Positions 3,412 through 58,568 of a stretch of 64,000 nucleotides of DNA are shown here, in pieces (the stretch's first letter is position 1; the number at the start of each line of letters is the position of its first letter). A model generated the notes under the pieces. That model saw nothing but the letters and a program-made list of their open reading frames with translations, did not search any database and was not told the DNA's origin. A program made the translations under genes and the position numbers. Source of the stretch: Nitrosomonadales bacterium (GTDB lineage: Bacteria; Pseudomonadota; Gammaproteobacteria; Burkholderiales; Gallionellaceae); NCBI GenBank assembly GCA_016235045.1, contig JACRME010000008.1:496001-560000 (forward strand). The letters run 5' to 3'.

Positions 3412-3480
3412 CGTTTCTCCTTTCATTTGTCGGTTCGACCGGGACAAAGCGCTTCGTGCAACATGTCCGATTCCGAACCG

Positions 3481-8538: not shown

Positions 8539-8718
8539 TTTCCATCTCCTCCCGGCTGCGCGCATCCGCAGCCCGCGTACGGGGAACCCTTACATGCAAC
8601 AGGTAGCGCAAAACAACCAGAACGTAAGTGATACACGTAGCGGTATTCCCGAATTTTCAGGGATGGTGAAGTCTCGTACATTACATCGCATGCCAACCAA
8701 TCCTGCACGAGGCCTGCC

Positions 8719-12252: not shown

Positions 12253-12579
12253 CTTGTTCCTTGAAAGTTTGCGAAAATTTTCGTCGTTCTCCCCGGCGAC
12301 CGCGCGGCGAAGAACCATCAGACCAGCATTGTATCCAATTCGGCCGCATTTCCGGAAATTCCGGCACGGTCCGCCCGCACAATAAAAACCCCGCCACTCG
12401 GGCGGGGTTGAACGACAACAGTCGATGCGGCAACCCGGAAGGGTGGTCGGGGCGGGAGGAGCCGTCCTTTCCGATATTCCCCCGGGTCATCAGCCTCGGC
12501 TATCTGCCGAAGAAATCGATTGCCGACGGCAGTGGCCAACGGGCCTGCACTCTATATATATGCATCCGGCGATCAATGT
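12253..12579. other. 327-base gap between the CPA1 gene and the OTR-operon cytochrome b gene
   Basis: No gene is supported. It contains the terminator of the cytochrome operon (12383-12410) and must hold the promoter of the CPA1 antiporter, since both genes point left. I recognise nothing else. Confidence 0.6.
12383..12410 (-). terminator. Rho-independent terminator of the OTR/cytochrome b operon
   Basis: The stem CCCCGCC / GGGCGGGG has a short loop and, on the minus strand, a following TTTTTATT run (AATAAAAA as written). It lies ~170 bases beyond the cytochrome b stop codon, with no other minus-strand gene between. Confidence 0.8.
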
Positions 12580-13179
12580 TTATTCCACCTCCTCCCAGCC
12601 GGTGATCATCGCCTTGATGTGCGAAGTAGGCGTGTGACCGGTTGTGGTCAGGTAAACGTGGGCGATAAAGAACGCCAGCATCATGAATGCTCCTGCGGTA
12701 TGGAAAAAGGCGACCCATTCCAGCGACAGGTAACTGTCCACGCCCCATGCTTTCCAGTCGCCGAAAAACAGGTAGAACCAGCCGGTGAACCAGAGCAGCG
12801 GGCCGATGAACAGCAACACGCCCAGATAGGCCAGGCGCTGCAGGGGATTGTGCTTCTTCAGCGTGGTCGGCCGGAACGGATGCGGCGCGCCCTGGAAAAT
12901 GCCGATGGAGTAGAACTGGATCATGGCGACCACCTTCTCCCGCGTCGGGATGTATTGCTTCCATTCGCCGGTGGTGAAATGCCAGAAGATCGCGAACACC
13001 CACAGGCTGACCAGCGTCCATGCCGCGACGGTATGCAGCGATGCGGCCTTTTCGAAACCGAACAGGTGGTAGGAACCATGCACCTCGAAGCCGGTGAGCA
13101 TCATGAAGATGATGAGCATGGCCTGCGACCAGTGCCAGAAACGCTCGAAGCGCTTGAATACATATATATGTTCAGACAT
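12580..13179 (-). CDS. b-type cytochrome, membrane partner of the octaheme cytochrome
   Basis: A 199-residue inner-membrane cytochrome b of the b561/FdnI-like class, with four predicted membrane helices. Histidines placed to bind two hemes occur in helix 1 (RFWHWSQAMLIIFMMLTGFEVHG), helix 2 (LHTVAAWTLVSLWVFAIFWH) and helix 4 (FFHTAGAFMMLAFFIAHVYL). It would pass electrons between the quinone pool and a periplasmic partner. It starts three bases after the octaheme cytochrome gene ends and closes that operon, so the two probably form one complex. Such small b cytochromes also serve thiosulfate reductase and hydrogenases, so the partner is inferred from linkage. Confidence 0.85.
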   Translation of the reverse strand: MSEHIYVFKRFERFWHWSQAMLIIFMMLTGFEVHGSYHLFGFEKAASLHTVAAWTLVSLWVFAIFWHFTTGEWKQYIPTREKVVAMIQFYSIGIFQGAPHPFRPTTLKKHNPLQRLAYLGVLLFIGPLLWFTGWFYLFFGDWKAWGVDSYLSLEWVAFFHTAGAFMMLAFFIAHVYLTTTGHTPTSHIKAMITGWEEVE

Positions 13180-13182
13180 GGT

Positions 13183-14832
13183 TTATCCTTTCCGGTTGCT
13201 CAGGTAGATGCGGCCGGCGCCATGGGCGATTACGCCGAGCAGGGTCAGCAGGGCGACTATCCAGCCGGCAGCGTCGAGCAGCTTATTGTTGTCGCCGCGT
13301 CCCGGCATGTAGATGCCCTTGATTTCTTTGAGACGGCCATTCACGCTGTGGCACTGGGCGCAGGTGAGCGCATCGCCTTTCGGTGCCACCATGTGGGTTA
13401 TGGGCCATGTCTGCTCAGTATTGACGAAGCCGTACTGGCCGCTGTAAGGCAGGCCACCGGCTTTCATTCCGGCCGTGATCGCCTTCTGCCAGTCGTAGTT
13501 GTGCCACAGCGCCGTGTCGTCCTCGCCCCCGGTGTGTTGCAGGGTGAGCGTCAGGTTCACCTTGTCGTAGGGCTGCTTTCCGCGGTGCACATTGGTCGGC
13601 CAGATGCGCGAGTCGGGATCGTTGGGGCCGCCGCCCACTTCGTTGATCAGTACCGTCTTGCCCGGGTCGATCTTGTCGCCAATCACTTGGAACTTGGAAG
13701 CGCCATTGAACCAGCGGTAATCCGGGATCACGTACGATTCCCACACCCACGCGCCTTTCTTGGAGTCGAAGGCACGGCGACCGGCGCTGTCCTTGCGCAC
13801 TGTCGGCTTCCCGTCCGGCCCCATGACCGTGGCCTGGGACCAGTCCCAACTGCGTTCAGTACCAATGGCGTCGCGGGCATACTCCGGGATATGGCAGGCC
13901 TGGCAGGCGATCTTGTCGGTGTGCTCGTTCAGTCTGGCCAGCGGATGCGGCTTGTCGCCGTGGCAGGATTGGCAAGAGGCGGGATTAACCGTGTCTTCCT
14001 TGCCGCGAACGTGCGCCGGCCCCTTGACTGCCGCCGCCACGTTGTAACGGCTGCCCGAGATCTGGTGGCTGGACGTGGAATGGCAGGTGGCGCAAGTGAA
14101 GTTGAGCCCCTTCTCATCCATGTGCACGTCCAGATACCTGTCCGGATGCTGCAGCGAGCTGCTCAGGTCGCCGTGCTTCGCGCCGTTGGCACCGCCGCCG
14201 AAAAAGTGGCACGCGCCGCAGTTGGTACGGCTTGGTTTGCCGATGCTTTGCGCGACTTTCCTGAGGTCGACTGCCTCAACGAACTTGCCTGATCCTTTGG
14301 GAAACTCGGTGCGCTTGTACACCGGATGTCCCGCATCTCCAGGCAATTTGCGATAAGTGGCGGTCGTGTCGTGACACACCAGGCAGTCAACGTTCTTCTC
14401 GACGGTGAAGTCGAAGCTGCTGTCCTTCCACCCGTAACCGGCGTGACAGGCCATGCAGTCCTTCTCGTTCGAAACGGGGGATGTGCAGTAATTATTGATG
14501 ATGTTCTTCTTGCCGCGCTTCTGCCCGGTCTTGGGATCGACGGACTCCCAGGTCCAGTGTTTGGTATGTTGCACCTGTTTGGCGGCTTCGTTGTGGCAGA
14601 TGAGGCAGGCTTCGGTCACTTCCGGGCCGGTCTTGAAATTCTTTTGCAGTTCCTTGAATTTGCCATGGTCGGCAGTGGAAGTGCTGGCCGGTTTCGGTTT
14701 CGCCGGGACAGCCGTCACAGGCGCCGGTGCTGCCAATGCATCCGTCTTCGTGGCGACGGCAAATGCGTTCGGCCCTGCCAGCAGGGCGGAGAACGCCAGC
14801 GCCGACAGGGTAATTCTGCGTATGGGTAACAT
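13183..14832 (-). CDS. Membrane-anchored octaheme c-type cytochrome, OTR (tetrathionate reductase) family
   Basis: A 549-residue periplasmic multiheme protein with a signal peptide (cut near AFA, residue 25). Eight CxxCH sites lie at about residues 76, 126, 150, 205, 247, 287, 310 and 491. The CxxxxNEKDCMACHAGYGWKD region and the heme spacing match the octaheme tetrathionate reductase family known from Shewanella, whose physiological substrate is debated (tetrathionate, nitrite and hydroxylamine reduction in vitro). Unlike the soluble Shewanella enzyme it ends in a membrane helix (~522-540) and is paired with a cytochrome b gene three bases downstream. GGAGAGGACAAC precedes the ATG at 14832. 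Whether it reduces or oxidises its substrate is not decidable from sequence. Confidence 0.88.
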   Translation of the reverse strand: MLPIRRITLSALAFSALLAGPNAFAVATKTDALAAPAPVTAVPAKPKPASTSTADHGKFKELQKNFKTGPEVTEACLICHNEAAKQVQHTKHWTWESVDPKTGQKRGKKNIINNYCTSPVSNEKDCMACHAGYGWKDSSFDFTVEKNVDCLVCHDTTATYRKLPGDAGHPVYKRTEFPKGSGKFVEAVDLRKVAQSIGKPSRTNCGACHFFGGGANGAKHGDLSSSLQHPDRYLDVHMDEKGLNFTCATCHSTSSHQISGSRYNVAAAVKGPAHVRGKEDTVNPASCQSCHGDKPHPLARLNEHTDKIACQACHIPEYARDAIGTERSWDWSQATVMGPDGKPTVRKDSAGRRAFDSKKGAWVWESYVIPDYRWFNGASKFQVIGDKIDPGKTVLINEVGGGPNDPDSRIWPTNVHRGKQPYDKVNLTLTLQHTGGEDDTALWHNYDWQKAITAGMKAGGLPYSGQYGFVNTEQTWPITHMVAPKGDALTCAQCHSVNGRLKEIKGIYMPGRGDNNKLLDAAGWIVALLTLLGVIAHGAGRIYLSNRKG

Positions 14833-14884
14833 GTTGTCCTCTCCGTTGATCTTGCTGCGCTGGTTAGTTATGCGGGTGATTGCA

Positions 14885-15433
14885 TCAACAACCACCGGGC
14901 GCACTGGCGCCGGAGCCCCCGCTTGGCGCACCGGGCATACCCTTGATCATTTCGGGCGCAGGCTTGCTGGGATCGAACAGGATGAACTTGGCCTGATCTT
15001 GGGCAACGTGTCCCATGATCTCGCCGACCATGGGGCCGAACATCTTGCCCATCAGCCCGGCATTCATCAGACCGATGTAGGTCTTGCCGTCGTTCTTTTT
15101 GTAAACCGCCACCTTGCACGGCATCAGGATGGAAAGGAATCGGACGGTGTCGTCCTTGAGGATGGGACCGGAATACTTGGTGCTGCATGCTTCGATCATC
15201 ATGACCGGCAGGGTATTTCCGCCGGCAGCTTCGACTGCTTTGCCGGGATTGCGCAGGCCGGAAAGCGCCCAGCCGTTGCCGACGTTCTGAATATTCTGCT
15301 GGATGCGGGCGACGGTTTCTTCTTCACCGAAAGGACTGACCACCTCCCGGAACATCAAACTCCCCATGTAGTTATATGCCAGCAACCCGACCACGACCAC
15401 TCCGGCGAAAAAACCTCCAATGACTTTCAACAT
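14885..15433 (-). CDS. DUF302 protein, membrane-anchored
   Basis: A 182-residue protein with one N-terminal membrane helix (~6-24) and a DUF302-like body (ETVARIQQNIQNVGNGWALSG, MPCKVAVYKKNDGKTYIGLMNAGLMGKMFG, VGEIMGHVAQDQAKFIL). The C-terminus is Gly/Pro/Ser-rich and ends in Cys. DUF302 proteins are common next to sulfur and multiheme cytochrome genes; the biochemical role is unknown. GGAGG seven bases upstream fixes the ATG at 15433. It is the first gene of the operon with the octaheme cytochrome (52 bases later) and cytochrome b. Confidence 0.82.
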   Translation of the reverse strand: MLKVIGGFFAGVVVVGLLAYNYMGSLMFREVVSPFGEEETVARIQQNIQNVGNGWALSGLRNPGKAVEAAGGNTLPVMMIEACSTKYSGPILKDDTVRFLSILMPCKVAVYKKNDGKTYIGLMNAGLMGKMFGPMVGEIMGHVAQDQAKFILFDPSKPAPEMIKGMPGAPSGGSGASAPGGC

Positions 15434-15576
15434 TTTGTAACCTCCACACAGAAGCAAAGAATTGCAATATGAACACGAACAGACTGGAAACGACGGCAGC
15501 GCAAGGTTCGAAATCCATGCCCCGCCCTCCGGCGGTTATTGTCTACGACATCATGCAGTCCCTCCACGGTCTCTCG

Positions 15577-15630
15577 GCTTAAAACGACGGCACCTAGGTT
15601 CCGTTCTTATCAGACCTTGGTCTTATCCCG
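15577..15630. promoter_or_regulatory. Conserved regulatory module, copy 1 (AGACC-TT-GGTCT)
   Basis: Starts GCTTAAAAC, then an imperfect site (CACCTAGGTTCC) and, 22 bases further, the inverted repeat AGACCTTGGTCT (15612-15623), ending TCCCG. The same order, with the same 22-base step between sites, occurs at 24533-24587 upstream of the island's two-component genes. Inverted repeats with two-turn spacing are typical of dimer-binding regulators such as NarL-type proteins. It lies 144 bases upstream of the DUF302 gene start. The binding protein is inferred, not shown. Confidence 0.65.
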
Positions 15631-15912
15631 TCGCGGGCAGACCGCCATAAAGCAAGTCGTCACTTACGCCATATCCGATACCTCAAGCCAGTTTTTCAGA
15701 AGATTCGCTCAGCCAGGAATAATGAAAACCGCACGCGCCACAACCATACTTAATGTGTGGTGATTTGCTTATAACTATCACTAACTTTATGGCTATTGTG
15801 CTCAAAGCACAACAAAATGGAAATTTTTGGCAAAAAAGATGAATTTGCGCAAAAAAAGGCTAATAATGGCGACCGACAATCGGTTTTTGAGCATTTTGAG
15901 AGGGATCAATAA

Positions 15913-16080
15913 ATGCGAAAAACAATGTATTCGATCCGATCCGTAACTGATGCCTGTAACCCGGCGCGCACTGAGTTTTTCATCGTCTGCGGCAAACGCC
16001 ATCCCGATTTCCCCAAGCCTGATAACGCCAACAACAATATTGATGGCGAAGTGAGCACGTCTGCGAACTGCATTAATTAA
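15913..16080 (+). CDS. Possible 55-residue small protein (doubtful)
   Basis: A short frame begins MRKTMYSIRSVTDACNP and ends NCIN, with GAGAGGG eight to nine bases before its ATG. It stops 18 bases before the lipoprotein gene, so it could be a leader peptide of that operon. No family is recognised, it has no signal peptide or membrane segment, and composition is unremarkable. It could equally be chance in a control region. Confidence 0.25.
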   Translation: MRKTMYSIRSVTDACNPARTEFFIVCGKRHPDFPKPDNANNNIDGEVSTSANCIN

Positions 16081-16098
16081 TTTGCGGGGGTAACGATC

Positions 16099-18243
16099 AT
16101 GAAGCAATCCATGAAAGTGCTGTTTCACCTGATAGCGACCGCGCTGACCATGCTGGTTCTGGCACTTTCCGGTTGCGGGGGAACCGGCGGCGGCGACAAT
16201 GTCGGCGTGAACGGGCCCGCCCCCTCAATCACCGGGGTCGCAGCGACCGGCGGGCCGATCATCGGAGAAATCACCCTCAAGGATTCGTCCTCTCCCGCGC
16301 AAGTGTTGCACGGCATGACTTCCAGCGACGGCTCTTTCGTTTTCAACACCACGGGCCTGACAGCGCCTTATATTCTCCGGGCGACTGCCGGGGGCAAGAA
16401 TCTGTATTCGATATCGGCCACTGACATCGGTATTGCCAACATATCCCCACTGACAAGCATCGTGGTCAGTGTCGCCGCCGGCGGCGCCGATCTGGATGCA
16501 TTATTCAATGCGAATCCCGTCGATCTAGCGGCCACAGTCGCCGCCATCCCCACTGCGGAGACGGCAGTTCAGGACGCCTTGGCACCCATGCTGAGTCTCT
16601 ATGGCGCGAACGGCAACATACTCAACTCTGCGTTCAACGCAAATCATGCCGGCGCCGATGCGCTCCTGGACGTCATCGACGTAACGATCTCGGCAGGCCC
16701 GGGAGCCACCATCACCATCACCAACAAGGCCAATGCCTCGGTTATTTTTACCGCAGCGGCATCAGACGTCTACGCAGGCACGGTCGGCGCGCTTAATGTG
16801 GTGGGGACGAATATCCCGCCGGTTCCGGCGGAAACGCTGGGGGCATCGCTTTACCGGACAAATTGCTCCGGCTGTCACGGCGACATCTCCAACTCCACCG
16901 TCATCGGCAGAAACTCGGTCAACACGATCCTGACGGCAATCGCCACCGATGTCGGCGGCATGGGCAACCTGTCCGCGCTGTCCACTTCCGATATCCAGTC
17001 CATCAGCGCCGCCATTCCGGGAACCGCATCGCCGCCCGCCACCGGCGGTGCGGCCCTGTACACGGCAAACTGCGCGGGCTGCCACGGCCCCCTGGCGACC
17101 TCGACCAAACTGGGCGCCACCTTCGTCCGCATCCAGAACGCAATTTCATCCAACGCGGGCGCCAGCACGGGAGCCGGCATGGGCCGCCTGTCCACCCTCA
17201 GCGCTGCCGATCTCCAGGCCATCGTGGTCGCCCTCAATCAAACCCCGACCACGCCGGTCACGCCCACCCTGGACGGCGCCACGCTCTATGCCAACAACTG
17301 TGCCGGCTGCCACGGTCCACTGGCCACTTCCACCAAAAAAGGTCTGACGCTCGCGCGCTTTACGGCTGCCGTCACCACCAACAGTGCGACCACCGGAATG
17401 GGATACCTCTCCACCTTGACCACCGCCCAGGTGGAGGCCCTCATTGCGGTGTTGCCCGCGGCAGCGCCGGCACCGGGCGCATCGGCCGGTGAAATCCTGT
17501 ATGAGGCAAATTGCACCGGTTGCCACGGCGCTTTCCTGTCGTCTGCCAAGGCAGGACCGACCATGACTTCCGTCAGGATACAGGGTGCCATCACCGCCAA
17601 TACAGGCGGGATGGGGATGCTCTCCACCCTCACCGCACAGGACGTTACCGATATCGCAACCGCGTTGGCCGCGCTCCCCGCCCCCGTGGTCGCGACTGAC
17701 GGACCCGGCCTGTATGCGACATATTGCGCCGGCTGCCACGGCCCGCTGGCAACCTCGACCAAAGGCGGGGCCACTGCAGCCAAGATACTGGCCACCATCA
17801 ACTCCACCGTCCCGGCCAGGGCGACCGCCATGGGCACTGCCCTTCTCAAGGCGCTCACCACAGCCCAGATCGATCTGATCGCAGCCGCCTTGTTGCCGAT
17901 TGCCCCTCCTGCCTGCGGTAGCTGCCATAACGTCACGCCCACGACGCTCACCACCAGGAGACACACATTGCATCTGAGCACCACCACCAGTTCCCAGGTC
18001 AACAGCAGGTTCCCCGCCGCCGACCAACGCTGCGGTACCTGTCACGGTGCCGGATACACAAGCACAACCAATGTTGCGGCGACGCACAACGACGGGATTG
18101 TGGATATCGCTGCCAACGCCGCCACGGCGATAGCCCCGTATAACGGCCCGATAAACTGGGTGCCCCCCGTACGCGATGCCAACGGCGCAATCACCACCGC
18201 AGGCACCTGCACGCCCGCATGTCACGGCAGGAAGAACTGGTAG
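16099..18243 (+). CDS. Surface lipoprotein with five tandem mono-heme domains and three C-terminal hemes
   Basis: A 714-residue probable outer-membrane lipoprotein: signal peptide with lipobox LSGC (Cys26). Residues ~43-125 resemble a carboxypeptidase-regulatory/Ig-like surface domain (GVAATGGPIIGEITLKD, GSFVFNTTGLTAPYIL). After a spacer come five cytochrome c-like repeats with CxGCH at residues 256, 325, 401, 472 and 543, about 70 residues apart, each with a downstream Met-rich GMGxLSxL segment that may give the sixth ligand. The tail has CGSCH (606), CGTCH (645) and an unusual CTPACH (CX3CH, 704). It lies 181 bases before mtoA on the same strand, so it is a candidate extracellular partner of the MtoAB conduit. 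I know no named family with this layout. Confidence 0.8.
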   Translation: MKQSMKVLFHLIATALTMLVLALSGCGGTGGGDNVGVNGPAPSITGVAATGGPIIGEITLKDSSSPAQVLHGMTSSDGSFVFNTTGLTAPYILRATAGGKNLYSISATDIGIANISPLTSIVVSVAAGGADLDALFNANPVDLAATVAAIPTAETAVQDALAPMLSLYGANGNILNSAFNANHAGADALLDVIDVTISAGPGATITITNKANASVIFTAAASDVYAGTVGALNVVGTNIPPVPAETLGASLYRTNCSGCHGDISNSTVIGRNSVNTILTAIATDVGGMGNLSALSTSDIQSISAAIPGTASPPATGGAALYTANCAGCHGPLATSTKLGATFVRIQNAISSNAGASTGAGMGRLSTLSAADLQAIVVALNQTPTTPVTPTLDGATLYANNCAGCHGPLATSTKKGLTLARFTAAVTTNSATTGMGYLSTLTTAQVEALIAVLPAAAPAPGASAGEILYEANCTGCHGAFLSSAKAGPTMTSVRIQGAITANTGGMGMLSTLTAQDVTDIATALAALPAPVVATDGPGLYATYCAGCHGPLATSTKGGATAAKILATINSTVPARATAMGTALLKALTTAQIDLIAAALLPIAPPACGSCHNVTPTTLTTRRHTLHLSTTTSSQVNSRFPAADQRCGTCHGAGYTSTTNVAATHNDGIVDIAANAATAIAPYNGPINWVPPVRDANGAITTAGTCTPACHGRKNW

Positions 18244-18424
18244 CCTTCCGCGCCGGGTTTGTGAACGCAATCGCCCGACCGGGGCAATTCCGGCCGGGCG
18301 GATCTCTGGACAACCAGAGGCATGAGATTGTTTACTGGCAATTCCGCTGTTCAAGTGTTTCATCGGCACAGTTACACGCACTGCATGACTTGATGATCGC
18401 AATTTGACATGGGAGCAGTGAATA

Positions 18425-19381
18425 ATGAAAACAATCAGCGCAATTGCGGCCCTGTGTGTCGGCATCGCAGCAACCGGCTGGGCAGCCGCGGCACTCGCAG
18501 AAATCACGCCTGCCAATGACCTCGTGCTCAAAGGCGATGCCAAATGCACCTACTGCCACGACGAGGCCGATTCTCCCGAACTGCTTGCCATCGGCATGAC
18601 ACGCCACGGCGTTATGGCGGACGAACGCACGCCGACCTGCACCAGTTGCCACGGCGAAAGCAGCGAGCACGTCAACTACAAAGGCAGCGCCAAACCGCCG
18701 AAACCGGATCGCACTTTCGGCAAGAAGACACAGACTCCCGTTTCCGATCGTAACGAAGCCTGCCTGACCTGCCATTCAGGCGACCGCAAACGTCACTTGT
18801 GGGAAGGCAGTACGCACCAGATCCACGATGTCGCCTGCACTTCATGCCACCAGGTACATGTGGGACATGACAACGTAACCGACAAGCGCACCGAGCCCGA
18901 GGTGTGTTTCGCATGCCACAAGGAACAGCGCGCCCAGATCAACCGGCAATCCCACCATCCGGTGGTGGAGGGCAAAATGTCCTGTTCCGATTGCCATAAC
19001 CCGCACGGATCGGCCGGCCCGAAACTGATGAAACGCTATAGCGTGGTGGAGACCTGCTACACCTGCCATATGGAAAAGCGCGGGCCGTTCGTGCACAACC
19101 ACCAGCCGGTCAACGACGACTGCACCAATTGCCACATGCCGCACGGCACCACCGCCGATTACCTGCTGAAGGCGCGTCCGCCCCTGGTTTGCTACCAATG
19201 CCACAGCGGCCACGGCATTCCGGGTGTTGCCGGCATTGCCCCCGGAATCACGACGTCCGCCAAGGCCGATACCAACATCGAACAAGGGCGCGGCTGCCTG
19301 AACTGCCACACCGAGATACACGGCAGCAACAATCCGAACGGCGGGGACAAGCTTCTCCCGCCGGCCTTCTTCTTGCAGTAA
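18425..19381 (+). CDS. mtoA: Decaheme periplasmic cytochrome MtoA/MtrA (DmsE family)
   Basis: The electron-carrying half of an outer-membrane porin-cytochrome conduit. It is 318 residues with a signal peptide (cut near ALA, residue 25) and exactly ten CxxCH sites at about 41, 72, 113, 138, 161, 187, 211, 233, 256 and 291. Distal His ligands occur in repeated segments such as STHQIHDVACTSCH and HHPVVEGKMSCSDCH, as in MtrA/MtoA/PioA. GGGAGCAGTGAATA precedes the ATG. The barrel gene follows after 14 bases. In Sideroxydans MtoA takes part in Fe(II) oxidation and in Shewanella MtrA in metal reduction, so direction is open here. Confidence 0.93.
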   Translation: MKTISAIAALCVGIAATGWAAAALAEITPANDLVLKGDAKCTYCHDEADSPELLAIGMTRHGVMADERTPTCTSCHGESSEHVNYKGSAKPPKPDRTFGKKTQTPVSDRNEACLTCHSGDRKRHLWEGSTHQIHDVACTSCHQVHVGHDNVTDKRTEPEVCFACHKEQRAQINRQSHHPVVEGKMSCSDCHNPHGSAGPKLMKRYSVVETCYTCHMEKRGPFVHNHQPVNDDCTNCHMPHGTTADYLLKARPPLVCYQCHSGHGIPGVAGIAPGITTSAKADTNIEQGRGCLNCHTEIHGSNNPNGGDKLLPPAFFLQ

Positions 19382-19395
19382 TCGGGAGCTAAATC

Positions 19396-21768
19396 ATGAA
19401 CGGCAAAATGACTCCAAAAAGATTCCGCCTGACACCCGTCACCGCCGCATTGCTGGCTGTTTTCGGCAGCGCCCTGGCCGAAGAGAACAGCGAAGTGCAA
19501 CAACTGACCACGCCGGAAAGTTACCTCAGTACCGGGGCGGCCCATGTCAACAGCACCCTGGATGCCAAGCGGTTCGGCCAGTACACCGGCATGAACCAGG
19601 ACGGCTACTATGGCGTGGCCGATTTCGACCTGGTGAAGCGCGACGACGAAAAGGGCAAGTGGACCATCATCAAAGGACGCAATCTCGGCCTGGACACCCT
19701 CGAGCTGGGCGTGTCGCAACAGAAACAGGGAGACTGGAAATACACGGTGGAATTGAACAATATCGTGCGCAACGATCCTTACATCATCCATACCGGCATG
19801 GCCGGCATCGGCACTGCCACGCCGGTCGTGAATCTGATCGCCAACCCCCTCCCCGATATCGCCGGCACCTGGGGCGCCACCGGCGCCGGGAGCGCCAACG
19901 AGTTCGCGACGAGTAACGGCATTCCCGGCTCGGATACGGAACTCAGGATAAAACGCAGCGCATTTGGAATCACTGCGGAAAAACGCCTCTCGCCGGACTG
20001 GACGATCGAAGCCAGCTTCAGGAACGAAACCAGGAAGGGCGCGCGCCTGTTCGGCCGGGCAGGTCTGGCTTCGGATCAGATTGCCGTCGGCATACCGACG
20101 CTGCCTTTGTCCTCCGGAAACTGGGCCGTGCTGTTGACGCCGGAGCCCCTCAGTTCATCGATCCGGCAAATCGACCTCACCGCGAATTACGTCCGGGAAC
20201 GTTACGCCCTCTCCGGCGGTTATTACGGGTCGTTCTATGTCAACGATTTCGGCAGCCTGTCGCCTTCGGTTCCGGGAACGCTGAACCGCGGCCCGTTGAC
20301 GCCGGGCGGGACGCCCGCCGGTGCATTGTCCATACAGCAGATGGCCTCATCCCCGATAGCCCTGCCGCCCGACAACCAGGCGCATCAGCTTTATCTGGGA
20401 GGCAAATGGGATTACTCGCAGGCGACGCATGCCAACTTCAACCTGTCCTACACCCATGCCACCCAGAACGAGAGCTTTGCCGCGCAAGGGCTTGCGCCTA
20501 CCGCCCCTACCGCCCCGGCAAGCCTGGGCGGGGTCGTGAATACCACGCTGGCGCAAATAGGAATCAACTCGCGCGCCGGCAAAGACCTCTCGATCAATGC
20601 CAGTCTGCGTTACGAGAAGCGGGACGACCGGACGCCCGTCCACATCTACAACATCGGTGCCATCGGCGGCGGACTGGACAACACAACCAACTGGCCTTCC
20701 GCATCGCAGACGCGCACGCTGGCAAAACTGGACAGCACTTATCGTCTGGGCAAAGGCTATTCCGCCTTGCTGGGAGCGGACTGGGAGAACAAGAAAATGC
20801 CCCCGCTCCCGGCCAACACGGCCATCTTCCCGAACCAGGTTTTCGTGCGCCCGACCTTGAATGAATACGGACTGCGCGCCGAATTGCGCAAATCCCTGTC
20901 GGAAACGCTGAACGCCGCAATCGGCGTTGAATACAAAAAACGCAAAGGCAGCGGGGACTGGATGACATCGTCCACCCTGGTCGGCACGCCCAATCTCGTT
21001 GCGCCCGGCACCATCAACCGGGTACTGCCCGACATGTACATGGACCGCAATCGCAGCAAGCTGAGGGGTACGCTTGATTGGGCACCCTCGAACGCCCTGT
21101 CCGCACAAGCGGTGCTGGAACATGCGCGGGACGACTACAAACGCGACGCGCTTGCCCCCGTCGCAGCCGATGCAGGCGCGGGCATACAGGCCTCACCGGT
21201 ACTCGCCGGCGCCCCCATCCCGGGTGCCCGTGTTGTCAACGCCGATTCGTTCACTCTGGATGGTTCCTATGCGATAAACGACGATTGGAAAGCGAACGGC
21301 TACTGGACGCGCAGCGAAAACCGCTGGAACGTCAACAAGGTCAATCTGTCCGACGACACCCGCATCAGCTCCGGCACCGTCGGTCTGGGCATCAAGGGAA
21401 AGGTCAAGGTCTTCCGGGAAGTGGGGCTGGACTTGATTGCCATGCAGGAACGGACGACCTTCACCAACGTGCTCACCACGGCGGCCGGCACCGGAAACAT
21501 CGTCGGATTCAACGGGACGACCAGCCCCGGTGGCAATTACCTGCCCAGCATCAGAAACCATTCCAGGAAAGTGAACTTGTATGGCATCTACGGCCTGGAA
21601 AAGAACGTGGATGTTGTAATGAGCATGGCCTACCAGCACTTCGATACAGACGACTGGCAATGGGGATACAAGGGCATCCCGTTCATCTATTCCGACAACA
21701 CGACCGTCTCCCAGCCCACGACGCAGAACCTGTGGATGCTTGCGGCGCGTTTCATCTACAGGATGTGA
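19396..21768 (+). CDS. mtoB: Outer-membrane beta-barrel MtoB/MtrB (PioB family)
   Basis: A 790-residue protein with a signal peptide (cut near ALA, residue 28), predicted to form the ~26-strand barrel that sheathes MtoA. It has the alternating pattern throughout (LELGVSQQKQGDWKYTVELNN, IRQIDLTANYVRERYALSGGYYGSFY, KVNLYGIYGLEKNVDVVMSMAYQHF). There is no cysteine at all in the mature protein, so it lacks the N-terminal CxxC of gammaproteobacterial MtrB, as expected for MtoB/PioB types. The last residue is Met rather than the usual Phe of barrel proteins. GGGAGC eight bases upstream supports the start. Convergent with the CbcL-like gene. Confidence 0.9.
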   Translation: MNGKMTPKRFRLTPVTAALLAVFGSALAEENSEVQQLTTPESYLSTGAAHVNSTLDAKRFGQYTGMNQDGYYGVADFDLVKRDDEKGKWTIIKGRNLGLDTLELGVSQQKQGDWKYTVELNNIVRNDPYIIHTGMAGIGTATPVVNLIANPLPDIAGTWGATGAGSANEFATSNGIPGSDTELRIKRSAFGITAEKRLSPDWTIEASFRNETRKGARLFGRAGLASDQIAVGIPTLPLSSGNWAVLLTPEPLSSSIRQIDLTANYVRERYALSGGYYGSFYVNDFGSLSPSVPGTLNRGPLTPGGTPAGALSIQQMASSPIALPPDNQAHQLYLGGKWDYSQATHANFNLSYTHATQNESFAAQGLAPTAPTAPASLGGVVNTTLAQIGINSRAGKDLSINASLRYEKRDDRTPVHIYNIGAIGGGLDNTTNWPSASQTRTLAKLDSTYRLGKGYSALLGADWENKKMPPLPANTAIFPNQVFVRPTLNEYGLRAELRKSLSETLNAAIGVEYKKRKGSGDWMTSSTLVGTPNLVAPGTINRVLPDMYMDRNRSKLRGTLDWAPSNALSAQAVLEHARDDYKRDALAPVAADAGAGIQASPVLAGAPIPGARVVNADSFTLDGSYAINDDWKANGYWTRSENRWNVNKVNLSDDTRISSGTVGLGIKGKVKVFREVGLDLIAMQERTTFTNVLTTAAGTGNIVGFNGTTSPGGNYLPSIRNHSRKVNLYGIYGLEKNVDVVMSMAYQHFDTDDWQWGYKGIPFIYSDNTTVSQPTTQNLWMLAARFIYRM

Positions 21769-21797
21769 CAACGGAAACGCGCGCGAAGCAATCCAAA

Positions 21798-21833
21798 CGA
21801 GGACGGCAGGCCTTGTATCCCCTGCCGTCCTCG
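21798..21833. terminator. Hairpin between convergent mtoB and the CbcL-like gene
   Basis: A perfect 13-bp stem (CGAGGACGGCAGG and its complement) around a ten-base loop lies 29 bases after mtoB and 10 bases after the minus-strand gene. Neither side has a strong T-run, but the position between two converging genes argues for a two-way transcription stop. Confidence 0.65.
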
Positions 21834-21843
21834 TCAAACGGCG

Positions 21844-23823
21844 CTACCTGCCGAAGAATCCGATCGCGATCACCGCGAGCAACGTCAGGCCGATGGCGAT
21901 CAGCGTCAGCCCGAGTATCTTGGACGCGCGCGTCATCTGCGGCGCCGGTGCATCCACCAGGTATTTTTCCAGCTCGCCCGAGTCCACCAGCCGCTGGTAG
22001 TAGGCGGGATGGTCTTTGCGGAAATCCTCCAGCGACTGCGTGCCGGTGAACATCACCACGTCCGGCGGCGGCAGTTTGTCGGGGCGGAAGTGGTTGTTGA
22101 AGAAGTGCACCGTGAACAGGAACACCGCCGCCAGGAAACCCTCTTCGCCATGCACCAGCGTGGCCACGTTGAACACCCAGCCCGGCAGGTAAGTCGCCGT
22201 CACGTGCGGGAAGGCCAGCATCAGGCCGCTCCAGCCGATGATGTTCACGCCCCAGAAAACCGCCCAGTAGTCGAACTTCTCGAAGTAGGTCCAGCGGTCG
22301 AATCTGGGCTTGTCGCCCCTGCCGAAGAACCACTTGAACATGGCCCAGGCGTCGCTGAAGTCCTTCCAGTTCGGGATGAACGAATCCGGGCCGAACCAGC
22401 GGAAGGTCTTGCTGCGGAATATCCCCGCCATCACCCACACGAAGTGGATGAGGAAGATGGTCACAAATGCGGCGGCGCAGAAACGGTGGATCATGCCGAC
22501 GATGCGCGGACCGCCCAGCGCCTGCGCCACCAGCGGCGCCCACGAGCTCGATGCATAGAGCGCGGTCATACCGGTCAGGATCAGCGTCATGGTGATGACC
22601 GCAAACGTCAGGTGCGCCAGACGCCACCCCCATTTGAAGCGCTTGAAATGCTTCTTCTCGTCCAGCTTCAATCCCTTGAGATCGATGTACGGCATCGGCT
22701 TGCCGGCCTTGCGATCCTGCGATTCGCGGTAGTACCAGAGCAGCGAATGCGTCCAGAAGAAGGCGAACACGAAAATCAGCAGTCCGACCATGAACATCGA
22801 GGCGATGTACAACTGCGGATATTTCTTGAAATCGTGGTTGTTGGCATGCGGGCCGAAAGACATGAACCCCGGCGTCGCGTCGTGCATGCCCGGTTTCTTG
22901 TCGTTATGGCACTTCTGGCAGGTCTTCATCCGGTTTTTGGACGAAACCTTGGCATTCGGATCGTCGACCGCGCGGATATCGTGACTGCCATGGCAATCGG
23001 CGCAGCGTGCCGTGTAGGAGTAGCCGAGGCGGTTGACCTGGCCGTGATAAGTGTCGGTATAGCTCTTCAACTCTTCCGTATGACAGCTGCCGCAGGCATT
23101 GACGTTGGCCAGCTTGAAGGCGTCCGACGAAGTGTTCACGATGGCATGACTGGTATGGCAGTCGGTACACACCGCCGCCTTGACGTTGCCCTTGTCGAGC
23201 ACCTCTTCGCCGTGGATGGAAGCGGTGTAATCCTCGAACTGGTCTTCATGGCACTTCTCGCCGCAGGTCTTGGGGATTTCCTTGTGCCAGACCGTGCGCC
23301 TGGTCGTGCCGGCAGCCGGGACATTGAATTCGTGCGAGCTGTGGCAGTCTTCGCAAGTGGCCTTGGCGTGGGAAGGATCGTCCTTGTCGGGACGCGCATG
23401 GAAGGAGTTCCTGTAGGCTTCGATGTTCTGCACCACCAGTCCCAGCCGCGATTTCTCTTCCGTCAGATTTTCCTTCCTGGCGGTTTCCCACAGCGCCTCG
23501 TGGCAGGAAACGCAATTGGGCTTCGCCGCATCGGGATTCTTCCGGTGCCGCGCGACGGCGTCGGTGATCTCGGTGTGGCAATCGACGCATTGCATGTCGC
23601 CGTGCGTGCCCTTCGCGAACTTGATTGTGTTCAGTGCGGCAAGCGCCCGCATCTCGCCGTCCTTGCCGGCGACCTCCAGCTTGCCTTTCTTGCCGTCGTG
23701 GCAGGTGAGGCAGCTTGCGTTGTCGAGTATTGTTGTTTCAGCCTGCCCCCAAGCCGGACCGGCAAGCGCAAAACCGGCAACCAGCAATGCCATGGCAGCG
23801 ATATACAGTCTTTGTGGGTTCAT
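21844..23823 (-). CDS. CbcL-like inner-membrane cytochrome: nine-heme c domain fused to a b-type cytochrome
   Basis: A 659-residue fusion. After a signal peptide (to ~26) a periplasmic part carries nine heme sites at about residues 38, 79, 104, 157, 187, 219, 244, 274 and 302; the fifth is CGEKCH (CX3CH). From ~338 there is a membrane cytochrome b of the HydC/FdnI class with histidine-bearing helices (WRLAHLTFAVITMTLILTG, IHRFCAAAFVTIFLIHFVW, LVHGEEGFLAAVFLFTVHFF) and a C-terminal helix. This nine-heme c plus b layout is that of Geobacter CbcL, which passes electrons from menaquinol to periplasmic cytochromes at low potential. The start has AGGTTGAAGAGC upstream. The small cytochrome gene precedes it by 82 bases. 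Family likeness is by architecture. Confidence 0.85.
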   Translation of the reverse strand: MNPQRLYIAAMALLVAGFALAGPAWGQAETTILDNASCLTCHDGKKGKLEVAGKDGEMRALAALNTIKFAKGTHGDMQCVDCHTEITDAVARHRKNPDAAKPNCVSCHEALWETARKENLTEEKSRLGLVVQNIEAYRNSFHARPDKDDPSHAKATCEDCHSSHEFNVPAAGTTRRTVWHKEIPKTCGEKCHEDQFEDYTASIHGEEVLDKGNVKAAVCTDCHTSHAIVNTSSDAFKLANVNACGSCHTEELKSYTDTYHGQVNRLGYSYTARCADCHGSHDIRAVDDPNAKVSSKNRMKTCQKCHNDKKPGMHDATPGFMSFGPHANNHDFKKYPQLYIASMFMVGLLIFVFAFFWTHSLLWYYRESQDRKAGKPMPYIDLKGLKLDEKKHFKRFKWGWRLAHLTFAVITMTLILTGMTALYASSSWAPLVAQALGGPRIVGMIHRFCAAAFVTIFLIHFVWVMAGIFRSKTFRWFGPDSFIPNWKDFSDAWAMFKWFFGRGDKPRFDRWTYFEKFDYWAVFWGVNIIGWSGLMLAFPHVTATYLPGWVFNVATLVHGEEGFLAAVFLFTVHFFNNHFRPDKLPPPDVVMFTGTQSLEDFRKDHPAYYQRLVDSGELEKYLVDAPAPQMTRASKILGLTLIAIGLTLLAVIAIGFFGR

Positions 23824-23905
23824 GCTCTTCAACCTGATTACCCCCTGAACGCAGTCTTCATTCGTCCCGGCCACGCGGGCGCCACCAATCGAACCGGAGC
23901 CGGGT

Positions 23906-24259
23906 CTAAAGCGAAAGTATCCAGCGCACGAGTTTCTTCAGTTCTTCCTGGTCCGTAATATCGATGATCTTGTGTTCCTCTTCGGTTCCATCCTCCAGCT
24001 TGACCTTGGGGCCGGTCGTGATGTTCTTGAGCATTTTTTCTTCGCCTTCGGCTTCCTTGCCCTTGTATTTGGCGGCGATCTTCTTGTAGGACGGCCCCTT
24101 CTTGGTTTTATCGATGGCATGGCATTTGAAGCAGTCGTTCTGTTTCAGAATCTTCTTGAACTCGGCGCCTTCATCGTCGGCTGCGCCGGCTGTCATCGAA
24201 AACGCGGCGCCGAGCGTCCCGCACAGCAGCAGAATCCACATCACCTTGATGTTTCTCAT
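23906..24259 (-). CDS. Small mono-heme c-type cytochrome, probable periplasmic shuttle
   Basis: A 117-residue protein with a signal peptide (cut near AGA, residue ~26) and one CFKCH site (43-47), resembling class I cytochromes of the c551/c552 size. The C-terminal helix LKKLVRWILSL is typical. The place where class I proteins have the axial Met is occupied by GTEEEHKIID, and the only later Met (76) sits in a helix, so His96 may be the second ligand. The body is Lys/Glu-rich. It is first in an operon with the CbcL-like gene and, like MtoD in Sideroxydans, could carry electrons between the inner membrane and MtoA. GGAGAAAAGCC precedes the ATG. Confidence 0.85.
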   Translation of the reverse strand: MRNIKVMWILLLCGTLGAAFSMTAGAADDEGAEFKKILKQNDCFKCHAIDKTKKGPSYKKIAAKYKGKEAEGEEKMLKNITTGPKVKLEDGTEEEHKIIDITDQEELKKLVRWILSL

Positions 24260-24336
24260 GGCTTTTCTCCTCTAAAAAAACTCGGGCTCAACAATTAGCA
24301 TCTTCACCCCGGTTCCGCCATACGCATTACTACTAC

Positions 24337-24453
24337 TTAAACTTTGCTTGCCAGGATGGTCTTGCGGCCGCGCGGCCTCCGCAAGGCGGGATCAAGGCCA
24401 CCCTTCAACATCCCCCATTGCAGTTGAAATATCGACACACTGATATTCTTCAT
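24337..24453 (-). CDS. Possible 38-residue small protein (doubtful)
   Basis: A short frame, MKNISVSIFQLQWGMLKGG at its start and ending RKTILASKV, lies between the regulatory module and the mono-heme cytochrome gene on the same strand as the latter. It is basic and has no signal peptide. The upstream GCCGGGAAACGCG is a poor ribosome site. It may be a leader peptide or chance. Confidence 0.22.
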   Translation of the reverse strand: MKNISVSIFQLQWGMLKGGLDPALRRPRGRKTILASKV

Positions 24454-24532
24454 CGCGTTTCCCGGCTAATTATTTGAATTTTCCTTGTGCGACATTCTCT
24501 ACACACACCTGCGCAGTCACCACGGCCTATGA

Positions 24533-24587
24533 GCTTAAAACCGATAAGACCTTGGTTCCCTTATTCTCAGACCTTGGTCTAGTTCCG
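24533..24587. promoter_or_regulatory. Conserved regulatory module, copy 2 (AGACC-TT-GGTCT)
   Basis: GCTTAAAAC, then AGACCTTGGTTC (24547-24558) and AGACCTTGGTCT (24569-24580), exactly 22 bases apart, ending GTTCCG. It matches the module at 15577-15630 in order, spacing and most bases. It lies 72 bases before the histidine kinase start and ~275 bases before the mono-heme cytochrome gene on the other strand. The NarL-type regulator encoded at 26064-26714 is the obvious candidate binder, which would make the pair autoregulated. Confidence 0.68.
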
Positions 24588-24658
24588 CTGCAGCCATCGC
24601 GTGTTACCATTAAATTTGTATCGAACATAATAATCACCTACCTTCCCGAGGGTTTCCC

Positions 24659-26071
24659 ATGGTGGCCGCACTGAAGCAAGCCCTCCTCCAAATGAGTTTT
24701 TCGCGCCAGTTCCTGCTGGCGATCATTTCGGTTCTCGCGGCAGGCATGCTTGTCATCGGTTCATGGATAGGACACCTGATCGAGACGAATGCCGTGAACC
24801 GCACCGCCGCAATTTCCGCGGTCTATCTGGAAAGCATTTTTTCGGCACAATTGCAGGACTGGCCCTGCGGAGGCGCAGTGGGCAACCGGGCGCATACCGA
24901 ACTCGACCGCATTTTCGTGACCGGCCCGTTGCACCGCGAAGTGCTGCGTTTCAAGCTTTGGGACGCCGAGGGGCGAATCGACTACAGCAGCGACAATGCA
25001 CAAATCGGCCTTCGTTTCCCGGTCACGGGGCTGCTCGCAGCCGCTTTCTCCGGCAAGGTGCAGGCGCGACTCAGCCAACTCGACGAGACCGACAACCCGC
25101 CGGAACAGGCTCGCTGGTCAGAATTGCTGGAGATCTACGTGCCGATCCGGTCTGGCGCCGATAGCACGGTTGCGGTCGCCGAGTTCTATCTTTCCGTGGA
25201 CGCCCTGAAGCGCGAGATCCACGCCGCCCAACTGCGTAGCTGGGCCCTGGTTGCATTCTCCACTTTTGCGATCTACCTGCTTCTGTTCGGCATGGTGCGC
25301 CGCGCCAGCAACACCATTCGCGAGCAGCGGCAAGACCTGCACCACCAGCTTCGGCAACTGACCGCCTTGCTCGACGAGAACGATCGCATGCGCGAACAAT
25401 TGCGCGAAGCCGGCGTCAGCACGACGACACTCAACGAGGAGTTCCTGATCCGGATTGCCGCCGACCTGCATGACGGGCCCGCGCAGACAATTGCGTTCGC
25501 CCTGATGCGCTTCGACGAGTTTGCCGCCAACTGCCGCGGCTGCGCTTCGTCACCCAGCAATACTGCGCAAGAACTGCACAGCATCCACAGTGCACTGCAA
25601 TCCTCGCTCAAGGATGTGCGCAAGATATCTTCCGGCCTCGCGGTGCCGGGCATGGCCGAATTGACGCTCGCCGAAGCGGCCCGGCGCGCCGTGCGCGATT
25701 TTGAGCACTTGTCCGGGATAGCGGTTCAGTCCGAGATCGATGACGCATTGGGCAAGGCTCCGCTTGCGGTCAAAATCACCGTCTACCGCCTGCTCCAGGA
25801 ATCGCTCACCAACTGCTCGCGGCACGCCCCCAAGGGTGCGCCGAGCGTGCATGTGCAGAAGACCGACGGGGAAGTGCTGGTCGCCATCGCCGACCATGGC
25901 GCCGGATTCGATCCGCAGTCGACTGCCGTAGCCGGGCGGCTCGGACTGGCTTTCATGCGCGAGCGCGTGCGGCTGCTCGGCGGTATCTTTGAAATCGATT
26001 CCGCCCCCGGTCGCGGTACTGTCATCCGCGCCCGTCTCCCTCTTTCAACCGACGAAATCATCCATGGTTAA
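24659..26071 (+). CDS. NarX/DegS-type sensor histidine kinase
   Basis: A 470-residue inner-membrane kinase. Membrane helices at ~16-37 and ~198-215 flank a ~160-residue periplasmic sensing domain containing WPCGG and a PAS/Cache-like DAEGRIDYSS segment. A coiled coil (~222-255) leads to the HisKA_3 phospho-acceptor (IRIAADLHDGPAQTIAFALMRF) and an ATPase domain with the VKITVYRLLQESLTNCSRHA N-box and IADHGAGFDP G-box. GAGGG six bases upstream supports the start at 24659. It overlaps the response regulator gene by eight bases. Position beside the cytochrome operons suggests it senses a redox or donor/acceptor signal, which is inference. Confidence 0.92.
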   Translation: MVAALKQALLQMSFSRQFLLAIISVLAAGMLVIGSWIGHLIETNAVNRTAAISAVYLESIFSAQLQDWPCGGAVGNRAHTELDRIFVTGPLHREVLRFKLWDAEGRIDYSSDNAQIGLRFPVTGLLAAAFSGKVQARLSQLDETDNPPEQARWSELLEIYVPIRSGADSTVAVAEFYLSVDALKREIHAAQLRSWALVAFSTFAIYLLLFGMVRRASNTIREQRQDLHHQLRQLTALLDENDRMREQLREAGVSTTTLNEEFLIRIAADLHDGPAQTIAFALMRFDEFAANCRGCASSPSNTAQELHSIHSALQSSLKDVRKISSGLAVPGMAELTLAEAARRAVRDFEHLSGIAVQSEIDDALGKAPLAVKITVYRLLQESLTNCSRHAPKGAPSVHVQKTDGEVLVAIADHGAGFDPQSTAVAGRLGLAFMRERVRLLGGIFEIDSAPGRGTVIRARLPLSTDEIIHG

Positions 26072-26714
26072 CCCGATCCGCATTCTGCTTGCCGACGACC
26101 ATCCGCTGTTTCGCGAAGGCGTAGCCCATTCGCTCGGTACGGAACCGGACTTTGAAATCGTTGCCCAGGCCGCAAGCGGCGAGGAGGCTGTAGAACTTGC
26201 GCATCAATTGCATCCCGACATTGCGCTGCTGGATGTCACGATGACCGGAATGGGCGGCATTGCCGCGGCCGGAAAAATCGCGGCCGACACGCCCGGCGTA
26301 CGCATCATGATGCTCACCGTCTCCGAAAACCGGGAAAACCTGATGGCGGCCCTCAAGGCCGGGGCGCATGGCTACGTGTTGAAGGGCGTTTCCGCAGGCG
26401 AACTTCGCGCAATTACCCGCCGCGTGGCCGGGGGGGAAGCCTATGTCACGCCGGCCCTGGCCGCCGACATGCTGACCGAGTTTTCGCAACCGCACCCCAT
26501 CGACTCCTTTTCCGAGCTGACCACGCGCGAGACGCAAATCCTGCAATTGCTCAGCCAGGGCCTGACTAACCGGGAAATCGGCGAACGCATGTACCTGGCG
26601 GAAAAAACCGTCAAACATTACATGACGAGCATCCTGCAGAAACTGCATGTGCGCTCGCGCACCGAGGCAGCCTTGATCGCCATGCAGCGCAACGTGGCGG
26701 GTGGCGAACAATAG
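26064..26714 (+). CDS. NarL/FixJ-type response regulator, partner of the preceding kinase
   Basis: A 216-residue DNA-binding regulator. The receiver (~5-122) has LLADDHP, the phospho-acceptor in DIALLDVTMTGMGG and the switch Lys in GYVLKGVSAGEL. A LuxR-type helix-turn-helix follows (~150-210: LTTRETQILQLLSQGLTNRE, AEKTVKHYMTSILQKL). The ATG lies inside the end of the kinase gene, so translation is coupled. It is the likely reader of the AGACC-TT-GGTCT modules at 15577 and 24533. No other regulator is encoded in the cytochrome island. Confidence 0.92.
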   Translation: MVNPIRILLADDHPLFREGVAHSLGTEPDFEIVAQAASGEEAVELAHQLHPDIALLDVTMTGMGGIAAAGKIAADTPGVRIMMLTVSENRENLMAALKAGAHGYVLKGVSAGELRAITRRVAGGEAYVTPALAADMLTEFSQPHPIDSFSELTTRETQILQLLSQGLTNREIGERMYLAEKTVKHYMTSILQKLHVRSRTEAALIAMQRNVAGGEQ

Positions 26715-43947: not shown

Positions 43948-44107
43948 CCCCTCCCCCTTGCAGGGGGATAACCAGCGACTTGCCCGCTTGCGGGCTTAGT
44001 CGAATGGCTAGTAGTTACATCAGGGCTAGGGAGGGGGTAGAAACAGTGAGCTTGCACCTGTCGCTTCTACCCCCATCCCAACCTTCCCCCTGCAAGGGGG
44101 AAGGAGC
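43948..44107. repeat. Dispersed paired-hairpin element, copy B
   Basis: The outer arms (CCCTCCCCCTTGCAGGGGG at left, CCTTCCCCCTGCAAGGGGGA at right, with GGGGGTAGA/TCTACCCCC inside) match the family. The centre carries an extra hairpin module (GCCCGC-TT-GCGGGC and flanks, 43952-44026) shared, inverted, with copy E. It sits within the exporter operon between the HlyD-type and ATPase genes. Confidence 0.88.
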
Positions 44108-58363: not shown

Positions 58364-58568
58364 GATTCCTCCTTGGGATGATCCAATGTAGCGCAGACCT
58401 TGGACGAGGAATCGTCTTGAAGCGGGGAGGCTGCCATATCCCCGATAGAGCGGATTATGTGCGTTTCACCGGAACCGGACAAGCTTGCTCGGGCAATACA
58501 CCTGCACCGGTTCCGGTCATGTGCTTGTGGCATACTTCGCGGCTGTTAAAAACCCCCGAGATATCGCC

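Follow-up and report, generated by a model that had tools for sequence, protein, structure and literature searches.

A PgcA-like cytochrome lipoprotein ahead of mtoA-mtoB and a duplicated operator-like element in a mosaic mto locus of a Gallionellaceae bacterium

Which protein, if any, is the extracellular partner of MtoAB in iron oxidisers, and how are the mto genes controlled? Both questions are raised by a locus at positions 12580-26714 of a 64-kb window (the whole stretch of DNA that was analysed; G000:C32:496001-560000). The window is part of a 3.15-Mb genome, G000, and the host is, we infer, a Gallionellaceae bacterium of the Sideroxydans/Sideroxyarcus group. Judged by the gene families, haem motifs, gene order, conserved element and mosaic ancestry that can be read from the DNA, we consider it fairly probable that the locus encodes a co-regulated electron-exchange chain with a flexible PgcA-like surface cytochrome in the place of MtrC. 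Its core, mtoABCD, is already described; what goes beyond the open-licence papers searched is the surface cytochrome, the mosaic assembly and the pairing of the regulator with its element.

Translation and family searches confirmed the genes, strands, haem counts (8, 8, 10, 9 and 1), barrel, cytochromes b and two-component pair given in a preliminary description of this DNA. That description passed over a DUF302 gene inside the stretch. More than one CXXCH motif was found in just four open frames of at least 50 residues in the window; all four lie within the locus, which excludes chance. The features are as follows.

12580-13179, minus strand: cytochrome b561-type membrane subunit of the OTR cassette (PF01292, E 1.6e-23; partial similarity to PRK15006, below its cut-off)
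13183-14931, minus strand: octahaem tetrathionate-reductase-family cytochrome, OTR, with 8 CXXCH (TIGR04315, 593 bits, cut-off 375; PDB 1sp3, E 6.5e-112)
14885-15433, minus strand: DUF302 protein, third gene of the OTR cassette (PF03625, E 3.4e-10)
15592-15623, no strand assigned: operator-like element copy 1, ACCTAGGTTCC-N8-CAGACCTTGGTCT, between the OTR cassette and the PgcA-like operon
16099-18243, plus strand: PgcA-like lipoprotein cytochrome with 7 CXXCH and 1 CX3CH (lipobox LSGC, Cys26)
18425-19381, plus strand: MtoA/MtrA-family periplasmic decahaem cytochrome with 10 CXXCH (TIGR03508, 277 bits, cut-off 192; PDB 6r2q chain A, E 2.8e-67)
19396-21768, plus strand: MtoB/MtrB/PioB outer-membrane barrel (PF11854, E 5e-91; TIGR03509, 263 bits, cut-off 240)
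21844-23874, minus strand: MtoC, in which a 9-haem part (8 CXXCH and 1 CX3CH) is joined to a membrane cytochrome b; judged by eye, the start codon is probably at 23823
23906-24259, minus strand: MtoD-type periplasmic monohaem cytochrome c (PF00034, E 5.6e-8)
24549-24580, no strand assigned: operator-like element copy 2, ACCTTGGTTCC-N8-CAGACCTTGGTCT, between the histidine kinase and mtoD
24659-26071, plus strand: membrane sensor histidine kinase (HisKA_3/HATPase, by family search)
26064-26714, plus strand: NarL/LuxR-type response regulator (PF00072 and PF00196)

The lipoprotein comprises a signal sequence, the lipobox, an N-domain at about residues 41-233, five class-I monohaem domains (haem Cys 256, 325, 401, 472 and 543) and a C-terminal three-haem module (606, 645 and 704), and the linkers between its haem domains are short and contain Pro, Thr and Ala. 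A PDB sequence search resulted in four matches at E 0.001, all named 'Lipoprotein cytochrome c'. The N-domain matched 9i0d/9i0e (9i0d at E 3e-28, or 1e-39 by profile), and the monohaem domains matched 8qj6/8qjg (8qj6 at E 8e-17). According to Nash et al. 2024 (PMC11520253), 8QJ6 and 8QJG represent the first two domains of Geobacter PgcA, I and II, whose haems have His/Met ligands; domain III is bis-His and contacts the mineral, and electrons are transferred by tethered diffusion. From the shared entry name, 9i0d/9i0e is probably the PgcA N-domain. The ligands of PgcA domain I are His274 and Met301; in all five window domains a Met lies 28-32 residues after the haem His, invariant with the homologue in a second family genome (G003), so that His/Met haems are predicted. 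Among PgcA homologues, the number of haem motifs ranges from one to six (Zacharoff et al. 2017, PMC5732950). The protein thus combines the N-domain with tandem, predicted His/Met-type monohaem domains; long (PT)x repeats and a bis-His domain III were not found in it, and the three-haem module stands in the place of domain III. Due to the short linkers and this module, we describe it as PgcA-like and not as PgcA. Membership of the OmcA/MtrC family was rejected: the protein has 8 haems and five class-I domains, reaches 21.6 bits with PF22113 (cut-off 30), and TIGR03507 was absent from its matches at E 0.01.

Comparisons covered the genus group (34 genomes), the family (158), an order sample (399) and a class sample (369). 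The order and class searches scored at most two candidates from each genome, the family search at most six and the regulator search at most 19, and absences in these searches are therefore weak. The full architecture was found in 2 of the 158 family genomes, the window's own and G003. The G003 lipoprotein has six monohaem domains and likewise leads mtoA-mtoB, in the same order on a separate contig, where mtoA and mtoB are 78% and 49% identical to those of the window. The other matches in the order and class samples span the N-domain or the haem domains, none both; one of them (G477) is an N-domain protein ending in a single haem domain. From the 15 other genomes matched at class level, eight were fetched, comprising all six with haem-domain coverage and two with N-domain matches, and the rest matched the N-domain. 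Three of the six haem-domain matches (L257, L258 and L259) are tandem class-I cytochromes that adjoin homologues of MtoA and MtoB; two share their strand, with ~400 nt between the open frames, and one is divergent. In a fourth locus (L256), a 24-haem cytochrome is close by. That such neighbours recur is the strongest argument for tandem monohaem proteins serving conduits of the MtrAB type. A plasmid search with the lipoprotein gave N-domain matches alone, in 2 records. The lipoprotein is indeed unusual, as had been proposed; no publication placing such a protein beside MtoAB was found in the open-licence literature.

Other cytochromes resemble it in part. The 4-haem proteins beside MtoD/MtoC in G001, G009, G015 and G026 were rejected as orthologues due to weak or no blastp similarity (33% over 94 residues for G026); the two that were scanned are also tandem class-I cytochromes by Pfam. 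A four-haem class-I lipoprotein-like gene lies beside MtoD and MtoC in several Gallionellaceae (L024:1890-3062, L026:5913-7070, L027:8885-10120 and L074:3522-4730), with MtoAB not seen in the stretch read, and it possibly belongs to another electron path using MtoC. In the protein at L168:8297-10528 (minus strand), a PgcA-like N-domain is combined with four fibronectin III domains and, at the C-terminus, a single monohaem domain, from which the N-domain and the haem module appear to be shuffled. Additionally, a 1432-residue frame at L255:7549-11844 (minus strand) has 14 CXXCH in mostly tandem class-I-like domains, and nothing in the 19 kb read there matched MtoA or MtoB.

The second distinctive part of the locus is the two-component pair with its operator-like element. 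Regulator relatives 82-89% identical at E 1e-80 were found in 8 other family genomes (9 of 158 with its own), and the pair is divergent to mtoD in seven of these nine (G000, G012, G023, G025, G028, G034 and G144). Seven genomes besides that of the host have a kinase homologue, 68-74% identical, next to mtoD; the one in G018 is partial and lies at a contig end. Between kinase and mtoD lies the tandem element ACCNNGGTTCC-N7/8-CAGACCNNGGTCT, which matched twice in the window (15592-15623 and 24549-24580) and never in 100 shuffles. About 70 bp are alignable between the two copy sites, with a score of 55, whereas none of 500 mononucleotide shuffles scored above 28. The strict form, GTTCCN7-8CAGACCNNGGTCT, had 8 matches in 7 of the 158 family genomes and none for the reversed-pattern control: six between kinase and mtoD (G000, G012, G018, G023, G025 and G028), copy 1 of the window, and one further match. 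The core, CAGACCWWGGTCT, occurs exactly twice in the whole genome of the host, before mtoD and before the PgcA-like operon (reversed control, one). These two matching sites suggest that the halves of the locus may be switched on together.

Looser forms were less regular. Candidates with 4-5 substitutions stand upstream of the kinase in G034, G082 and G005, and G025 has a second, weaker form before its mtoD-mtoD-mtoC locus. No element was found in G144 at up to 5 substitutions, where a degenerate two-box form is visible by eye, and when up to 6 substitutions were allowed, the many matches showed no pattern. Two sigma-70 consensus sites were found, each just after an element copy; as shuffles average 5.3, nothing was concluded from them. 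In the open-licence literature we found no publication on an mto regulator and none on slit_2499-2501, and the available part of the 2026 Mto paper (PMC13390432) makes no mention of regulation.

The locus was also compared with its closest relatives for ancestry. One G003 contig has the order symporter-mtoD-mtoA-mtoB-mtoC-galU. The window shares its end genes, a sodium:solute symporter (26851-28932, the right neighbour of the locus) and galU (2596-3447), with matching DNA 80-90% identical. However, the kinase and regulator lie between symporter and mtoD, the interval from mtoD to mtoC lacks mtoA-mtoB, and mtoC is separated from galU by ~18 kb that include OTR and, in inverted orientation, the lipoprotein-mtoA-mtoB operon. 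In the MtoA tree (63 rows), the window falls in a five-row clade with G003_C22, G123, L101 and L106 (support 100/99). In the MtoC tree (88 rows, quick method), it is sister to G003_C38 (SH-aLRT 100), and the window MtoC is 84% identical to a G003 homologue, whereas the MtoA of G003_C38 falls in another clade than that of the window. The rows are the loci fetched by that point, some being one genome duplicated under two names; L029, a copy of L021, was left out, as were alignments under 240 residues for MtoA and under 560 for MtoC, including the split MtoC of L106. The trees indicate that MtoC and MtoA of the window trace to different loci and that the locus was rebuilt from two sources, which suggests a modular exchange of the outer and inner pathway halves.

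The core of the locus is of a familiar kind. The decahaem DmsE/MtrA-family cytochrome and the adjacent MtrB/PioB barrel form a porin-cytochrome conduit, with mtoB starting 14 nt after mtoA and the barrel being the sole MtrB/PioB match at E 1e-10 in the genome. The matched structure, 6R2Q, is that of MtrAB (PMC10654088), although its PDB file labels chain A oddly. With 9 haem sites and a membrane cytochrome b, MtoC belongs to the CbcL/MtoC/MtrH family (treated in PMC6295460), and a role with quinones is predicted. The monohaem shares 48% identity (E 1e-34) with the one that occupies the MtoD place in G028; PmcA was rejected, since the match to the monohaem at the PmcA place reached just E 0.048 over 15 residues, and no PmcA-like gene was found beside MtoD in the window. 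These family assignments support the view that these are extracellular electron transfer genes, with a plausible path from quinones to the surface and an MtoC entry instead of CymA.

With mtoA, mtoB, mtoC and mtoD together, in an order and on strands that differ from the common D-A-B-C, the cluster is an mtoABCD cluster. The preliminary description had taken MtoAB with a CbcL-like protein and a monohaem as a new arrangement. As mtoABCD with a nonahaem MtoC is described for Gallionella capsiferriformans ES-2 and Dechloromonas aromatica RCB (He et al. 2017, PMC5566968), this main claim of novelty falls. A contig scan with an alignment of seven homologues confirmed 146 MtoC places, and the best 80 were fetched as loci. 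Best-segment identity to MtoC was 53-84% in 77 of them and 46%, 46% and 34% in the other three; by open-frame comparison, 79 have an MtoC-type frame with more than 250 aligned residues. MtoA and MtoB are also present in 41 of the 80, an MtoD-like monohaem also in 38, and, on top of these, some kinase and regulator resembling the window pair in 23. MtoA, MtoC, MtrC and OTR in Gallionellaceae are covered by PMC10734462, and mtoC, mtoD and further cytochromes are reported beside mtrCAB (Baker et al. 2022, PMC8805035), the available part of the latter mentioning neither a lipoprotein nor class I.

OTR was likewise rejected as an integral part of the mto chain, which it had been proposed to branch from. 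It belongs to the TIGR04315 family by a profile above cut-off and 8 haems. In the genus group, OTR is present in 24 of 34 genomes and the MtrB/PioB barrel in 10; OTR occurs in 7 of the 10 with the barrel and 17 of the 24 without, thus showing no association with it. Eight of the listed OTR genes were compared, seven in other genomes and a second copy in the own genome (C30), one locus (L203) being cut on the left by its contig end. A homologous DNA block at ~12,578-15,440 is conserved in all eight, and no DNA match was found beyond it in the DNA compared; cytochrome b561-OTR-DUF302 is hence a self-contained cassette, independent of the mto genes, although, given the operator-like site beside it, it may be co-regulated with them in this genome. 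Table 1 of PMC10734462 already lists OTR for 25 of 87 iron-oxidising Gallionellaceae.

In the chain that we favour, Fe(II) or mineral at the surface would exchange electrons with the three-haem end and the string of His/Met haem domains of the outer-membrane-anchored lipoprotein. The lipoprotein haems would in turn exchange with MtoA inside the MtoB barrel, and MtoA, by way of the periplasm (MtoD and the 9-haem head of MtoC), with quinones at the cytochrome b of MtoC. The nine MtoC haems may bridge the periplasm as well as exchange with quinones. The flexible string would replace the rigid decahaem MtrC, its haems reaching the mineral by tethered diffusion. The two-component system would sense an envelope signal, and its regulator would bind both copies of the tandem element, the one ahead of mtoD and the one ahead of the PgcA-like operon, switching the two halves together and possibly the divergent OTR cassette too. 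Net flow is probably inward, as Fe(II) oxidation, in the host group, with reversible parts. The surface location, docking on MtoAB, direction, regulator binding and signal are inferred.

That the chain runs outward, as an Fe(III)-oxide or other extracellular reductase like Geobacter PgcA and Shewanella MtrCAB, is somewhat unlikely. PgcA domain III reduces Fe(III) oxides (PMC11520253), CbcL/MtoC/MtrH members occur in both Fe(III) reducers and Fe(II) oxidisers (PMC6295460), and MtoA and MtrA lack a clear separation in trees (PMC10734462). However, the cultured Gallionellaceae of the group are described as Fe(II) oxidisers (PMC10734462), and Sideroxydans lithotrophicus ES-1 makes Mto proteins on magnetite (PMC12016527).

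Several observations weigh against a co-regulated chain with a PgcA-like surface partner. The full lipoprotein architecture is rare, and the L257, L258 and L259 proteins combine PKD domains with several class-I haem domains without the PgcA-like N-domain. An AlphaFold model of the lipoprotein, from a 2-row alignment, reached a mean pLDDT of 32.4 and a pTM of 0.21. In ES-1, MtoD interacts with neither MtoA nor ImoA (PMC13390432), and with no PmcA-like gene here the periplasmic link is uncertain. The regulator lies near other haem genes in G082 and has no mto gene in the 16 kb read in G005, and the further strict element match, in G131, lies elsewhere. The element patterns were derived from the sites they find, so that what they tell is just how rare they are elsewhere. 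Neither a strict element nor the regulator at E 1e-80 was found in G003, and the two stretches read there gave no element at up to 4 substitutions; the cassette can therefore do without the regulator. Finally, the distance from copy 1 is 476 nt to the start of the lipoprotein and 158 nt to the DUF302/OTR side, and the flank kept with copy 2, which faces mtoD, faces OTR at copy 1, so that OTR may be the target.

This last point supports a separate explanation, which we hold to be unlikely: copy 1 would serve the OTR/DUF302/cytochrome b cassette alone, the mto regulator having recruited an OTR-type oxyanion respiratory branch in this strain. The element was found at up to 4 substitutions in none of 8 other OTR loci. 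Against this, copy 1 is also the sole copy before the lipoprotein-mtoA-mtoB operon, which would otherwise escape the neighbouring regulator. The target of copy 1 may be either the lipoprotein operon or the OTR cassette, or both of them. The least likely explanation, an ordinary mtoABCD locus with the lipoprotein and the OTR cassette as chance neighbours without functional link, accords with the wide occurrence of mtoABCD and the lack of an OTR association, but the lipoprotein gene precedes mtoA-mtoB on the same strand in both of its genomes, each time at a different place. Tandem-domain proteins are also found again next to MtoA/MtoB homologues of other loci, and the operator-like element is duplicated before the lipoprotein.

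With the co-regulated chain as our preferred reading, the locus offers a concrete candidate surface partner of unexpected type for MtoAB. On control, ES-1 MtoA was detected on magnetite and not on Fe(II)-citrate (PMC12016527), and mtoD rises in CL21 cells able to oxidise iron (PMC12442390); the exact regulator/element pair, shared with a genome of ES-1 gene order, makes the predictions directly testable. More tentatively, and with slightly more doubt than confidence, we propose a recurrent, undescribed conduit class, in which MtrAB/MtoAB would be capped by a PgcA-like string of His/Met monohaem domains, variable in number, in place of MtrC. A two-component system of its own would, through the tandem operator, tie together the modules of the surface, the outer membrane and the inner membrane.

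Outside these subjects, the left neighbour of the locus is a Na+/H+ exchanger frame (11014-12318). A second two-component pair, apart from the mto pair, lies at 6336-8565 (minus strand), with a MASE1 histidine kinase at 6940-8565 and a LuxR-type regulator at 6336-6959. A CusA/CzcA-type heavy-metal RND efflux permease and an outer-membrane efflux protein lie at 34875-39394 (plus strand). An Rfam search found no element in the locus and one match elsewhere in the window, a chrB-b RNA (RF03086, 56 bits) at 58393-58444 (minus strand), just upstream of a chromate transporter gene (57008-58363, minus strand). A 57-bp DNA element at 43966-44022 and 61483-61539 is 93-96% identical to G025 contigs C14 and C28 and is possibly repetitive or mobile.

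Among known systems, PgcA of Geobacter sulfurreducens is likewise a lipoprotein, with a matching N-domain, tandem His/Met-type monohaem domains and Pro/Thr/Ala-containing linkers. However, PgcA has three monohaem domains, whereas the window protein has five (six in G003) and a C-terminal three-haem module, and it is encoded with a porin-cytochrome conduit, in Gallionellaceae. The MtrCAB system of Shewanella also pairs MtrA and MtrB homologues with an adjacent lipoprotein cytochrome gene, but the window lipoprotein reaches no OmcA/MtrC-type cut-off. For OTR, the octahaem tetrathionate reductase (TIGR04315, PDB 1sp3) is of the same family, with 8 CXXCH, and here it sits in an independent DUF302-OTR-cytochrome b cassette. 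The Mto cluster of ES-1 (slit_2494-2498) shares MtoD, MtoA and MtoB with the window, and G028, which has the ES-1 gene order and may be ES-1 itself, has an orthologous kinase/regulator pair as well as the element, and its right flank is that of the window; ES-1 has the tetrahaem ImoA/CymA and PmcA, whereas the window has MtoC and no PmcA-like gene beside MtoD. The mtoABCD clusters of ES-2 and D. aromatica RCB likewise hold decahaem MtoA, barrel MtoB, nonahaem inner-membrane MtoC and monohaem MtoD in one cluster (PMC5566968, PMC6295460). In the window, by contrast, mtoA-mtoB are convergent to mtoC-mtoD and led by the PgcA-like lipoprotein, and MtoA belongs to another clade than the MtoA linked to the sister MtoC.

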